DNA from: a virus | IMG/VR virus record: IMGVR_UViG_3300042343_000421 | Coordinates: 1-41,701 of that record | Length of the DNA stretch: 41,701 bases | Strand: one strand, 5' to 3' | Shown: positions 36,185 through 40,689 of the stretch, one piece after another | Layout of the letters: each line of letters begins with the position of its first letter | How positions within the stretch are numbered: the first letter of the stretch is position 1 | Notes under the pieces: model-generated | Told to the model about the DNA's origin: nothing | What the model saw: the letters and a program-made list of their open reading frames with translations, nothing else | The model's database searches: none | Translations under genes and position numbers: made by a program

Positions 36185-36988
36185 ATGGGAATAATGGATA
36201 GTGTATCAGAACTAATGAATGGTTCTGCACCAAAAACAACTAATAACATGTTAGAAGGTTTATCAGATTTGCGAAAATATGATGTAGGAAGATCTTCATA
36301 TTTTAAAGTAGAAGTTTTTAACGTCCCTTTTACTGGAGTGGCTCCATCATCAGGAAATGATCCAAAATCTTTAAGTTATCTTTGTCATTCAGCGGAACTT
36401 CCAGGAGAATCTACTGCAACAGTATCACAAAAAATTTATGGTGTTAATGAAAAGTTTTCTGTTATGACTGGATATAATGATATCCAATTAGCATTTTATA
36501 CAAGAGGTTCTGGTGATGAAATGGTTAGAAAGTTTTTTCAATCTTGGATAGCATTTATTACTGGAAGGGATGAAACAGTAAAACAAATTAACCTAGAAAC
36601 AACATATAATGTAAAATATAAAAGTGAATATGCAGCATCAATAAAAATTACACATTATGCAATATCAGGAGATCCATTATTAGAAGTTACGCTATTTGAT
36701 GCATTTCCATTATCAATTAATCAAATACCTCTTTCTTGGTCTTTACAAAATCAAGCACAATCATTAAATGTTGTATTTGCATATACTGAATATCAATACG
36801 ATTTTAAATATGTTATTGGTATGAAACCTTATGCAAAAGGACCATTAGGACAATTATTAGAAACAACAAAAAATTTAACAGGCGCAGCAGAAACAATCCA
36901 AGGATCTATTAAATCCGGAAATTACTCAATGTTGGGATCAGTAGCACCTAGCATGGGTTTATCCAATTTTTCAGTATCTAGAGGTTAA
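36185..36988 (+). CDS. gp54: Baseplate tail tube initiator (gp54-like)
   Basis: Sits on gp48 at the baseplate and templates the first ring of the gp19 tube, with a tube-like fold. The 267 residues (T4: 320) have YFKVEVFNVPFTGV, SYLCHSAELPGESTATVSQK and YGVNEKFSVMTGYNDIQLAF, followed by FFQSWIAFITG, and later VTLFDAFPLSINQIPLSW and LNVVFAYTEYQYDF, the same order of strands as in tube proteins (compare YQYWEA of gp19). ATG at 36185 has TAAGGGAA 8 bases upstream, overlapping the previous stop. Placement beside gp26- and gp51-like genes is consistent with a tail-start cluster. Confidence 0.88.
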   Translation: MGIMDSVSELMNGSAPKTTNNMLEGLSDLRKYDVGRSSYFKVEVFNVPFTGVAPSSGNDPKSLSYLCHSAELPGESTATVSQKIYGVNEKFSVMTGYNDIQLAFYTRGSGDEMVRKFFQSWIAFITGRDETVKQINLETTYNVKYKSEYAASIKITHYAISGDPLLEVTLFDAFPLSINQIPLSWSLQNQAQSLNVVFAYTEYQYDFKYVIGMKPYAKGPLGQLLETTKNLTGAAETIQGSIKSGNYSMLGSVAPSMGLSNFSVSRG

Positions 36989-37019: not shown

Positions 37020-37742
37020 ATGAGTTTATTACCAAAAATCGAAGCACCAATCCATACAGTGAAATTACCTATATCTGGTTTACAAGTAAGATACAGACCA
37101 TACTGTGTAAAAGAGCAAAAACTTTTAGCAATGGCGAAAGAATCAGATGAAAAAAATGCGTTAATTGACGCGATACTACAATTATTAACAAACTGCGTTT
37201 TAGATTCAACAAATGTTAGTGAACTACCATTAACTGATGTTGAATATTTATTTTATATGTTAAGAGCTAGATCTGAATCAGAAATTGTTGAAATGAAGTT
37301 TAGATGCGAGAATTCAGTTGATGATGGTACATGTAATAATATAATGAATTACGATTTAAATTTATTAACCGACTTAGAAGTAATAAAAGGTGATGTATCT
37401 GATTTAATAGAAGTTACAGATAAAGTTGGATTAAAATTAAAGTACCAACGTTTTTCGCATGATACAATAGGAGATAAAATACCAACTCCTCAAGATATTT
37501 TAGAAATTATAGCTAAAAATGTTGATTATATTTATGATGAAAATTCTGCATATGGACAAAATGACGTTCCATTACAAAATATTGTTGACTGGATTGGTCA
37601 ATTGCCTCCAGAAAAATATAAAAAGATAGAAGAATTTTTTGACAATGAACCAAAAATTATTAAAAACGTAAAGATTAAATGTAACAAATGCGGGTTTGAT
37701 CATGTTATTACAGTAACGGATATTTTTGATTTTTTTATTTAA
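37020..37742 (+). CDS. gp26: Baseplate hub assembly / tail assembly chaperone (gp26-like) with Cys motifs
   Basis: Member of the T4 gp26 type: PKIEAPIHTVKLPISGLQVR, YRPYCVKEQKLLAMAKESDE and LPLTDVEYLFYMLRARS are characteristic. The 240 residues exceed T4 gp26 (208). Cys96 and Cys105 (RCENSVDDGTCNN) and Cys221-x-x-Cys224 (KIKCNKCGFDH) suggest a four-cysteine zinc ribbon. AGGA lies about 9 bases before the ATG. The gene ends ...GAT TTT TTT ATT TAA, forming a T_TTT_TTT slippery heptamer just before the stop, and the -1 frame beyond it is open (next entry). Position before the tape-measure-like gene is that of the frameshifting tail chaperone pairs of lambda-type phages. Confidence 0.88.
   Translation: MSLLPKIEAPIHTVKLPISGLQVRYRPYCVKEQKLLAMAKESDEKNALIDAILQLLTNCVLDSTNVSELPLTDVEYLFYMLRARSESEIVEMKFRCENSVDDGTCNNIMNYDLNLLTDLEVIKGDVSDLIEVTDKVGLKLKYQRFSHDTIGDKIPTPQDILEIIAKNVDYIYDENSAYGQNDVPLQNIVDWIGQLPPEKYKKIEEFFDNEPKIIKNVKIKCNKCGFDHVITVTDIFDFFI
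37730..37736 (+). promoter_or_regulatory. Probable -1 ribosomal frameshift site (T_TTT_TTT)
   Basis: Seven T in the exact X_XXY_YYZ phase: codons GAT-TTT-TTT of the gp26-like gene. A one-base slip leads to TAT TTA ATT CTT GGT in the -1 frame. The zero-frame TAA is only 3 bases after the heptamer, and a -1-frame TGA lies directly before it (37727-37729), so the -1 frame opens exactly at the heptamer. No structure is seen at the usual 5-9 base spacing; a strong hairpin lies 50 bases downstream. Confidence 0.75.
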
Positions 37743-37933
37743 TTCTTGGTAATGTTAACCTTTCAACATATTATAAGACAAACTTTTCCATGATGCAACA
37801 TCATGGATATAGCTTGAATGAGTTGGAAGGTATGATCCCTTGGGAAAGGGAAATTTATATTGGGTTGTTAATACAGTATCTAAAAGAAAAAGAAGAAAAA
37901 CGTAAACAACAAGAAGCTAATAGGAACAGTTAA
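37730..37933 (+). CDS. gp51: gp51-like tail chaperone extension in the -1 frame
   Basis: Too short for routine gene calling. The -1 frame is open from the slippery heptamer to the TAA at 37931-37933 and encodes about 65 residues after the shift (YLILGNVNLSTYYKTNFSMM, then QHHGYSLNELEGMIPWEREI, then YIGLLIQYLKEKEEKRKQQE). The SLNELEGMIPWEREIYIGLL stretch is of the gp51 / tail-chaperone T-domain type found in T4-like marine phages. No Shine-Dalgarno precedes the first ATG pair at 37790-37795, and those codons lie inside a 9-bp hairpin, so expression as a gp26-gp51 fusion by frameshift is likelier than free initiation (which would give 47 residues). Its stop overlaps the next start as TAATG. Confidence 0.78.
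   Translation, partial: FFYLILGNVNLSTYYKTNFSMMQHHGYSLNELEGMIPWEREIYIGLLIQYLKEKEEKRKQQEANRNS
37787..37807 (+). promoter_or_regulatory. Perfect hairpin over the alternative gp51 start codons
   Basis: TCCATGATG pairs with CATCATGGA through 9 perfect base pairs closing on a CAA loop. Both candidate ATG codons (37790 and 37793) are within the left arm. It could block internal initiation, or act as a distant stimulator of the frameshift. Confidence 0.6.
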
Positions 37934-40689
37934 TGGCAGATAATTCAAATTCATCGTTTTTGGATAAAGTACGAGGGTTGCCTGAAATGGCAACCAATCA
38001 GGTAAAACACGATTATACTCAAGTTATGCAAAATAGAGCAGATCGTGAAGCTATTATAGCCAGAGAAAATAAATCTAATGCATTAACTTCAAGCCAAAAA
38101 GAACAATTATCATATATTTCTAATGCAGCAGATGCACAGAAATTTGTTGATGCTTCTATGTTGGGGAACGAAAATGGAGATTATACTGCTGGTCAAAACG
38201 TTTATAAAGAATCACTAAAAAGTTCAGCTGGGGCATGGGGAGGTCTTGCTGCAAATGCTGCAGAATTATATGTAGGTGGAGCATTAACAAAAGGTATTTT
38301 TTCTGCAGGATCTAAAATATTTGGATCATTATCAAAAGGTTCTCGAGTAGCTGAAAGAATAGAACCCACAATGGGAAAGGCATTCGAAAGCGAATTTTCA
38401 GCAGCACAAAAAATTAAAAGAGAACAAGAAGCTATACAAAAAGCACAAGCAGATGGCGGATATTGGAAAAATAAAATAGGAAAGGGTACTACAACAAATA
38501 CTGAGCGAGCTGGACAAACAGTAAATCAAGAAAGAAGAGCTGCACAAGAAGCGGAAGAATTACGAGCTGATCAAAGCAGAAACCCATTTAACAATAGAAT
38601 GCCAAGAGAAACAACAGAAAGTTCTTCAGGTAGCAAAGGTATTTTTGGTTCAATATTATCTGGTACATGGGGTGCAACAAAATTTGCTGCAAAATCTATT
38701 CTAGGAACAGGATTAGGGTTAACTGCATTAGGCGGAGGATTGGGTTATCTAGGCTATAAAAACAAAGATTACCTACAAGGAAAAGCCAGTGAAATGGGAA
38801 CTGATTTAATTAATAAAAATGTTCCTGATTATTTGCAAGAACCCGCAACAAAAATATTAAATGATGCAATTTATGGCGAGAAAAAAGAAGGTGGAGAAGA
38901 AGGTACAAATGATGGAGAAACTGGAAGTGGCGGAGAAGGGAAAGAAAGAGGTCCAAATTTAATAGAAAAAATTGGAGCTGGTCTTGTTGGTGCAGGTGTT
39001 GCTACTGGTAGTAATCCATTTAAAGGTATTAAAGGTTTAGTTGGAGGAGTTGGTTCTTTATTTCCATCAAGAAATTCGTCAGAGGCAATGTTAAGTTCTA
39101 TGCCATCGGGAGGAGATTCAGGAACTGTTGGGGAAGGGCATTTTGCAGAAGGTGGGTTAGCTGGCAATACAGTTCTCGAAGTATTGAATAAAATATATCA
39201 AGTTTTATCTTCAACTAGAAATATAACGGAAGATATGGCAAGAAATGTATCTGCTTTAGTCCGAGCACAAAGTCAACAAGATACATCAAGAGATTTAATG
39301 TCTTCCAATTTATCTGCTAGACAAAATGAAGGAGGATCTGCTTCTATACTTAGTTCTGGTGGTGGGGGAAGAGATGACGATAATGATAATTCATCTAGTT
39401 CAAAAAAAGAAGGTGGTGGAATACTTAATTCTTTAATGTCAGCAGCAGGAAAAGCTGGTGATTTTGCGAAAAAATGGAAATACCCAATAGCTGTTGCAGG
39501 CGGAGTTACTGCATCCATGTTTTTTGGAAAAGAAGCTAACGCAAGTGAAGCTACAAGCGATTTTAAACAAATGCCTAAAACTTTAACTCCAATAAAAGGT
39601 AAATTATCATCAGAAAGTAAACAAGGCGGACTTAGCACAAAAGAATTTGACGAACGAGTAATATATGCTAAGAAATTCTTTCTGGAAGCAGGTTGGTCTG
39701 AAGCGCAAGCATCTGGTATTATAGGCAATCTAATAGGAGAAAGTGGATTACAGTCAGCACCAAAACCTGGAGATGGTGGAACGTCATATGGTATTGCGCA
39801 ATGGCATTCTCCTGAAAGACAAGCTAAATTTAAAGAAATTATGAAAGTTTCCATTAATGACGCAACATTTGGTCAACAATTACAATTTGTTGATTGGGAA
39901 TTAAAAAATTCAGAACAAAAGGCTGGAAATTTATTAAAAAGTCAAAAAACTGTATCTGGTGCAACTGGAGTTTTTGAAAAATATTTTGAAAGAGATAAAC
40001 AAAGTTCCGGACCAAATGGTAAAATCTCTAAAATAAGAATACAAAGCGCAGAAAATGTAATGCAAGCCAAAAGTCCTTCTTTAGAATCTAATTCTACTGA
40101 TATGACTCCAGAAGAAATTGAACATAGAAGAAGAGGAGCAAATATTGATGAAATTAAAGAAACTCCACAAGAAACATCAGATAGAGAACAAGCTTGGAGT
40201 AAATATGACAACGAAGAACCTACAAATAAAGAAAAAGGTTTATTAGATAAATTTACTGATACTTTCGATTTCGCTCCTAAACAAACAGCAACTCCATTGG
40301 ATGCTGAAGTTAGTGAAGTTGATACACAAAAAGCTGTATTACAAGAAGAAAGAAATAAACTTGCTAAACTTTCTCCTAGTAATGAAAAAGATATGACTGC
40401 TCAATTAGATCGTTTAAATGATATTAACACAGAAATGGTAGCATTAAATAAAAGACGTAATGATGTAACAGGAAGCGCAGAATATCAAGCAAACATGGAA
40501 AATAGAAAAACAGCAGGAATGCAGCAAGCTTCAATGAAACAACAGCAACCTTCTATGTCACAGCAATTACAAGGTCCAAGATCTCCTGCTGGTGTAAGTA
40601 AAGCTGTACCAAAAGTAAGAAATGATGATCCAACATTAATGAAAGTTGAACAAGGTAATTTATGGAATACCAATTCACATAACGCATAA
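37933..40689 (+). CDS. Tape-measure / hub protein with tail lysozyme domain (gp29 position)
   Basis: A 918-residue protein directly after the chaperone pair, the normal place for the tail length-determining protein. The N-terminal ~230 residues are polar and helical (AAQKIKREQEAIQKAQADGG). Hydrophobic Gly/Ala-rich helices at ~245-280, ~340-375 and ~510-530 resemble the membrane-active parts of tape measures. Residues ~572-690 form a phage tail lysozyme domain: FLEAGWSEAQASGIIGNLIG then ESGLQSAP, with probable catalytic Glu603, and GGTSYGIAQWHSPERQAKF, the pattern of the Phage_lysozyme2 family. The C-terminus is Gln/Met-rich. T4 gp29 (590 residues) has no such domain. Likely ejected first to open the cell wall. 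Start ATG overlaps the previous stop as TAATG. Confidence 0.78.
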   Translation: MADNSNSSFLDKVRGLPEMATNQVKHDYTQVMQNRADREAIIARENKSNALTSSQKEQLSYISNAADAQKFVDASMLGNENGDYTAGQNVYKESLKSSAGAWGGLAANAAELYVGGALTKGIFSAGSKIFGSLSKGSRVAERIEPTMGKAFESEFSAAQKIKREQEAIQKAQADGGYWKNKIGKGTTTNTERAGQTVNQERRAAQEAEELRADQSRNPFNNRMPRETTESSSGSKGIFGSILSGTWGATKFAAKSILGTGLGLTALGGGLGYLGYKNKDYLQGKASEMGTDLINKNVPDYLQEPATKILNDAIYGEKKEGGEEGTNDGETGSGGEGKERGPNLIEKIGAGLVGAGVATGSNPFKGIKGLVGGVGSLFPSRNSSEAMLSSMPSGGDSGTVGEGHFAEGGLAGNTVLEVLNKIYQVLSSTRNITEDMARNVSALVRAQSQQDTSRDLMSSNLSARQNEGGSASILSSGGGGRDDDNDNSSSSKKEGGGILNSLMSAAGKAGDFAKKWKYPIAVAGGVTASMFFGKEANASEATSDFKQMPKTLTPIKGKLSSESKQGGLSTKEFDERVIYAKKFFLEAGWSEAQASGIIGNLIGESGLQSAPKPGDGGTSYGIAQWHSPERQAKFKEIMKVSINDATFGQQLQFVDWELKNSEQKAGNLLKSQKTVSGATGVFEKYFERDKQSSGPNGKISKIRIQSAENVMQAKSPSLESNSTDMTPEEIEHRRRGANIDEIKETPQETSDREQAWSKYDNEEPTNKEKGLLDKFTDTFDFAPKQTATPLDAEVSEVDTQKAVLQEERNKLAKLSPSNEKDMTAQLDRLNDINTEMVALNKRRNDVTGSAEYQANMENRKTAGMQQASMKQQQPSMSQQLQGPRSPAGVSKAVPKVRNDDPTLMKVEQGNLWNTNSHNA

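Follow-up and report, generated by a model that had tools for sequence, protein, structure and literature searches.

A probable programmed −1 frameshift joining gp26-like and gp51-like parts of a tail assembly chaperone in T4-like phages

The window analyzed here (G000) is a 41.7-kb IMG/VR virus fragment (41,701 nt), and all features described below lie on its + strand. A tail tube protein (36185–36988; Pfam Phage_TTP_2, E 2.3e-10; PHROG 45 tail tube, E 3.4e-21) precedes a gp26-family gene (37020–37742, zero frame, 240 a.a) encoding the putative short tail assembly chaperone (TAC-N), which matches PF12322 (T4_baseplate; E 2.3e-48, residues 11–239) and PHROG 150 (E 7.9e-52). The 3′ end of this gene reads GAT TTT TTT ATT TAA, which places a T_TTT_TTT heptamer (37730–37736) in phase with the zero frame (GAT TTT TTT), with a single sense codon (ATT) separating this heptamer from the TAA that ends the short form (37740–37742). 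As the first-pass annotation had noted along with this phasing and 3-base spacing, the −1 frame is closed by a TGA (37727–37729) that abuts the heptamer and is open from 37730 to 37933. The −1 frame extension (37736–37933) comprises 65 codons (37736–37930) and a TAA (37931–37933) overlapping the ATG of the next gene at 37933, and would form the C-terminal part of a long chaperone (TAC-NC), the predicted fusion being 304 a.a (239 + 65). This stretch contains SLNELEGMIPWEREIYIGLL, matches PHROG 634 ("baseplate hub assembly catalyst", gp51; E 9.3e-28) as well as the C-terminus (240–280) of the gp26 profile PHROG 150, and has tblastn matches in 559 phage records. The sole in-frame ATGs in the extension form an ATG ATG (37790–37795) within its conserved part; no purine-rich ribosome site is seen in the sequence before either of them (37790, 37793), which bears out the earlier statement that the gp51 part lacks one of its own, and they are probably not a genuine start. 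The next gene (37933–40689, 918 a.a) lies at the putative tape-measure position.

The window (positions 1–41701) is strongly depleted of seven-T runs, with 21 found versus about 70 in dinucleotide shuffles, as if homopolymers were avoided except where used. Across its roughly 12,900 ORF codons, the in-phase form T_TTT_TTN is found at just six places, and the junction heptamer alone among these sits 10 nt before a stop. A chance T run at the junction is excluded by its conservation in relatives and by the synonymous-site test, both presented below.

The relationship between the two parts becomes clearer on comparison with phage T4, where gp26 and gp51 both match PF12322 and PHROG 150, and the C-terminal PHROG 634 extension is found in gp51 alone of the pair. 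T4 gp51 is thus composed of a gp26-like domain plus the extension found in the −1 frame of the window, and the terminus of T4 gp26 (LKEFFELL) coincides with the position where the short form of the window ends. The T4 pair therefore amounts to one protein in two lengths, each encoded by a complete gene of its own; the genes lie on opposite strands and lack a slippery run at the junction. The window, by contrast, appears to encode the same short/long pair from one start codon. While the window carries both the PF12322/PHROG 150 domain and the PHROG 634 extension of the gp26/gp51 family, its −1 frame piece, earlier described as gp51-type, corresponds to the extension and not to a whole gp51, since T4 gp51 includes the gp26-like domain; the label "gp26 + gp51" likewise names two parts that are present but hides the same domain in both T4 genes. 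The T4-type layout of separate, complete short and long genes was not encountered in the window record, which holds a single PF12322 match and, being a 41.7-kb fragment, could have a second copy lying outside it. The T4 arrangement is also seen in Thanatos and Marfa, and the fused form is encoded by a single ORF in T4 gp51, in the long genes of Marfa and Morganella phage vB_Mm5, and in contig L034.

We assembled loci from 80 viral contigs matched by the −1 piece, further scans, and named phages (DLP6 gp51 as a query against the viral contigs found nothing), giving 193 loci in which both gp26 and gp51 parts could be placed. The gp51 part lies in the −1 frame in 191 of these, and every one of the 191 carries an in-phase TTTTTTN (TTTTTTC in 151, TTTTTTT in 33, TTTTTTA in 6, and TTTTTTG in 1), located 10 nt from the gp26 stop in 153. 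The probable programmed −1 frameshift that the first-pass annotation proposed for the window is, on this comparative genomic evidence, strongly supported, and we regard it as very likely. Named phages sharing the heptamer include S-PM2, P-SSM2, S-SSM6b, S-WAM1, S-CREM2, Mosig, Melnitz, phi-pp2 (KVP40 type), Aeh1, phiM7, DLP6, Mendera, Milchi, pf16, Cr30, Atu_ph04, and AF3; their genomes range from 33 to 55% GC and their hosts are cyanobacterial, pelagibacterial, methylotroph, Vibrio, Aeromonas, Sinorhizobium, Agrobacterium/Rhizobium, Caulobacter, Pseudomonas, and Stenotrophomonas. In a dereplicated set of 109 sequences (at most 80% anchored identity), the −1 frame is stop-free for at least 48 codons in all 109, and in the +1 frame at the junction a stop follows after a median of 5 codons.

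The two loci without the −1 arrangement are S-SCSM1 (L103), discussed below, and L034, a 236-kb contig in which gp26 and gp51 form a single in-frame ORF (L034:2290–3183, 297 a.a) with the junction TCT TTT TGG, the T run being down to five. This natural fusion would yield the long form only, unless another process gives the short one. It could also be taken as a hint that the frame relation elsewhere is a sequencing or assembly error, i.e., a true in-frame fusion misread in a homopolymer; however, many separate projects contributed to the 191 loci that show the same relation, some of them isolates with a final C in the run (TTTTTTC) in place of a pure T7, and the number of independent sources leaves such an error virtually no probability.

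Further support for the slippery site comes from synonymous codon choice at the junction. The in-phase TTTTTTN is kept in 109/109 dereplicated sequences, where the codon preceding the Phe-Phe pair encodes Ser, Asn, Asp, Ala, or Thr and always ends in T (109/109), the Ser codons including the unrelated AGT and TCT, and where the first Phe of the pair is always TTT (109/109), compared to 64% TTT among upstream Phe codons. When clustered at no more than 55% identity, 17 clusters are left, all of which keep the run; the probability of this by synonymous choice is about 1e-12, a figure that gives the order of magnitude, as the clusters retain some dependence on one another. At the A site, all four bases occur (C, T, A, G), exactly the freedom permitted by a −1 slip, and because variants changing the A-site Phe to Leu retain the slippery run, it is the nucleotides, not the residues, that are held. 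A need for Phe-Phe in AT-rich genomes, with an incidental −1 ORF, would be in keeping with the conservation of this pair at the C-terminus even in the non-frameshifted gp26 of T4 (EFFELL), but T4 and Marfa, which need no slip, write it as GAG TTC TTT, so that the pair itself does not call for a T run. Phages of the frameshift arrangement, by contrast, always use T_TTT_TTN at up to 55% GC, and their −1 frame codes a conserved domain over those 48 or more codons. With the synonymous-site test already refuting it, we give this explanation practically no credence.

A different possibility is that gp51 is made as a separate small protein, either reinitiated after the gp26 stop or begun at the ATG ATG at 37790. 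A small gp51 CDS is indeed annotated in many records, starting at an ATG just past the gp26 stop in S-PM2 and at an internal Met in Melnitz and Mosig. In S-SCSM1 (L103:2465–2520, NC_070962.1), the heptamer is intact but the −1 frame runs for a few codons before it reaches a stop, an indel having shifted gp51 into another frame, where it has its own ATG in front. The S-SCSM1 case reflects either an assembly indel or a true loss of frameshifting. Against separate translation, in the stretch from the heptamer to the gp51 domain a start codon is present in 56/109 relatives and absent in 53/109, with an SD-like (ribosome-site-like) stretch before it in only 1/109, and the ATG at the internal place has such a stretch in 2/94. 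The −1 coding sequence also starts at the heptamer and is conserved 5′ of the internal ATG, and separate translation leaves the T_TTT_TTN constraint unexplained; we therefore consider it quite improbable. These counts also bear on the junction check suggested by the first-pass annotation: the conservation of the heptamer held in all −1-arranged loci, whereas the expected absence of a gp51 start codon held in about half of the dereplicated sequences. Its refuting case, a broken heptamer with gp51 keeping its own start and ribosome site, occurred in none of the 191 loci of this kind, the nearest exception being S-SCSM1, which keeps the heptamer and has a changed gp51 frame.

No joined gp26–gp51 CDS is present in the annotation tables of the named phages examined, and a gp51 feature is missing altogether from those of S-SSM6b, S-WAM1, and Atu_ph04. 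Because the fusion is unannotated, and the gp51 part is in several of these records missed or given an internal-Met start, the predicted long chaperone is missing from annotations on which proteomics and structure work rely.

Based on its arrangement, we think it highly probable that the locus in the window encodes a tail assembly chaperone pair from one start codon via a −1 slip. Most ribosomes would stop at the TAA at 37740 and produce the short gp26-type chaperone (240 a.a), while a minority would slip back one base on T_TTT_TTT with tRNA-Phe occupying both sites, bypass this stop, and run to 37931, producing a long form of about 304 a.a whose C-terminal helical extension would be the gp51-type domain. 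We infer both that this slippage occurs and that it is infrequent. By analogy with lambda G/GT and P2 E/E′, the labour may be divided such that the short form would coat tape-measure/tube components in tail assembly and the long form would help recruit them. The slippery site of lambda is G_GGA_AAG, as opposed to the T_TTT_TTN seen here. Frameshifted tail chaperones are known in lambda (G/GT) and P2 (E/E′) (Levin 1993; Christie 2002; Xu 2004); as predicted for the window, short and long forms share one start, with a −1 slip shortly before the short ORF ends, and the pair sits upstream of a tape-measure-type gene. Two G/GT hallmarks are seen in the window: a canonical X_XXY_YYZ heptamer (37730–37736) phased to the zero frame close to the 3′ end of the short ORF, and an open −1 frame, conserved in relatives, whose C-terminal extension has no start of its own. 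In gene order, a tail tube gene lies directly upstream, and the downstream protein of 918 a.a has a tape-measure match confined to its lysozyme domain. A chaperone function for the gp26-type proteins is plausible from naming in the literature as well: a 2010 review listed gp26 and gp51 among hub assembly chaperones, the family is named baseplate hub/assembly, and a 2022 title from the Davidson group calls the T4-like genes tail assembly chaperones.

The first-pass annotation expected such a frameshift to be new to T4-like phages, which does not stand, as the mechanism is already credited there to Vladimirov, Gautam and Davidson (2022; Virology 566:9–15), who, as cited in PMC10885494 and PMC12846349, identified T4-like tail chaperones in the same gene family as the window. 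A later paper attributes poly-T slippery sites in these chaperones to their work, and frameshifted T4-like chaperones are therefore not a new idea. As relayed in the PRFect paper (PMC10885494), their work also has some T4-like phages obtain the two forms without frameshifting, one from a short gene and the other from a fused gene separate from it. Their title puts the stress on a non-frameshift mechanism, which fits T4 but not the phages studied here. A similar case in contractile-tailed phages, argued by the same comparative method, is described in PMC12846349 for the chaperones of Vandenendeviridae/Andersonviridae, with a −1 shift at a T-rich motif (GTTTTT), although these are other phage families with another motif. 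New here, as computed in this study and with possible overlap with the 2022 paper, are the breadth of the survey, the synonymous-site test, and the profile of stimulatory elements.

Upstream of the heptamer, an SD-like core begins 12–15 nt away and lies in this region in 78/109 relatives. Hybridization of the upstream region with the 16S tail exceeds that of synonymous recodings (Stouffer z −10), and the GAG:GAA ratio at the SD-like codon is 46:18, compared to 80:222 elsewhere. No SD-like stretch was found upstream of the heptamer in the window. Downstream, folding energy was compared with that of recodings preserving the −1 protein, which revealed an excess of hairpin stability in relatives with a peak beginning 5 nt past the heptamer. 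Three of four sequence groups show this peak sharply, the S-PM2-like group with the greatest strength (mean z about −3), and the group to which the window belongs has a broad, weak peak; strong stems begin mostly 5–8 nt past the heptamer (29 observed versus 6 expected). The near hairpin in the window is weak (−4.6 versus a null of −3.0 kcal/mol). Across relatives, no fixed-register covariation of the near hairpin was found and RNAalifold predicted no shared structure in the downstream region, and Rfam returned no match. A common covariation is lacking because sub-lineages use differing stem registers, and energy relative to synonymous recoding was therefore relied upon for the near hairpin.

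In the window, a candidate stimulatory RNA structure (37759–37830) begins 22 nt past the heptamer, comprising an outer stem (37759–37767 with 37822–37830) and an inner hairpin (37787–37795 with 37799–37807), with an MFE of −25.3 kcal/mol (z −4.0). Paired changes in this structure number 8 versus 3.5 in shuffles, from only 9 sequences, and the two-part distal stem is similar in relatives L004 and L006 and unstable in L001 and L005. It is a candidate, unproven, for the stimulatory structure of the window's lineage.

Taken across the phages, the recoding signal is essentially universal in cyanophages, pelagiphages, and many proteobacterial T4-like phages, and it is the textbook model T4 that departs from it by encoding both forms separately. 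One tentative reading, to which we give slightly less than an even chance, is that frameshifting is ancestral in T4-type phages as a dnaX-like cassette (SD-like stretch, T_TTT_TTN, and hairpin) with lineage-varying stimulators; the T4 branch would have duplicated the gene to give gp26 and gp51, and the lineage of the window would have swapped the near hairpin for the stem 22 nt downstream. This fits the distribution, as the KVP40- and Aeh1-type members of the T4 family have the frameshift arrangement, which T4, Thanatos, and Marfa lack. Having frameshift, duplication, and a single fused ORF (L034) as natural alternatives offers a direct test of the importance of the short:long ratio. In Morganella phage vB_Mm5 (L093:1934–3216), a long chaperone gene is directly followed by a short one on the same strand, a tandem-duplicate arrangement that differs from the divergent order in T4.

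The most distant members of the family, Ackermannviridae, together with Vibrio phage D493 (L100:3245–3289, L199, L200, and L201), have, after the gp26-type gene, an open −1 frame with a gp51-like tail, mostly unannotated. The junction in these phages is ATT_TTC or CTT_TTC, not T_TTT_TTN, and is possibly a non-canonical slip site; the ATT_TTC form in Ackermannviridae does not offer the canonical pairing in the P site.

A search of PDB sequences found no relative, and the single-sequence fold of the window gp26 reached a pLDDT of 37; the fold comparison therefore used an aligned model of the L034 long form (pLDDT 87). This model matches viral baseplate hub/gp26-type models well and HK97 gp13 (2ob9) weakly (rmsd 2.7 over 62 columns, prob 0.57, E 1.9). 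In the downstream 918-a.a protein (37933–40689), the tail lysozyme domain (Pfam Phage_lysozyme2, E 2.9e-22) lies in the second half, and the match to the PHROG 9570 tape measure (E 3e-22) is limited to the lysozyme region; one protein may thus combine cell-wall digestion with the tape-measure position in the window's group.
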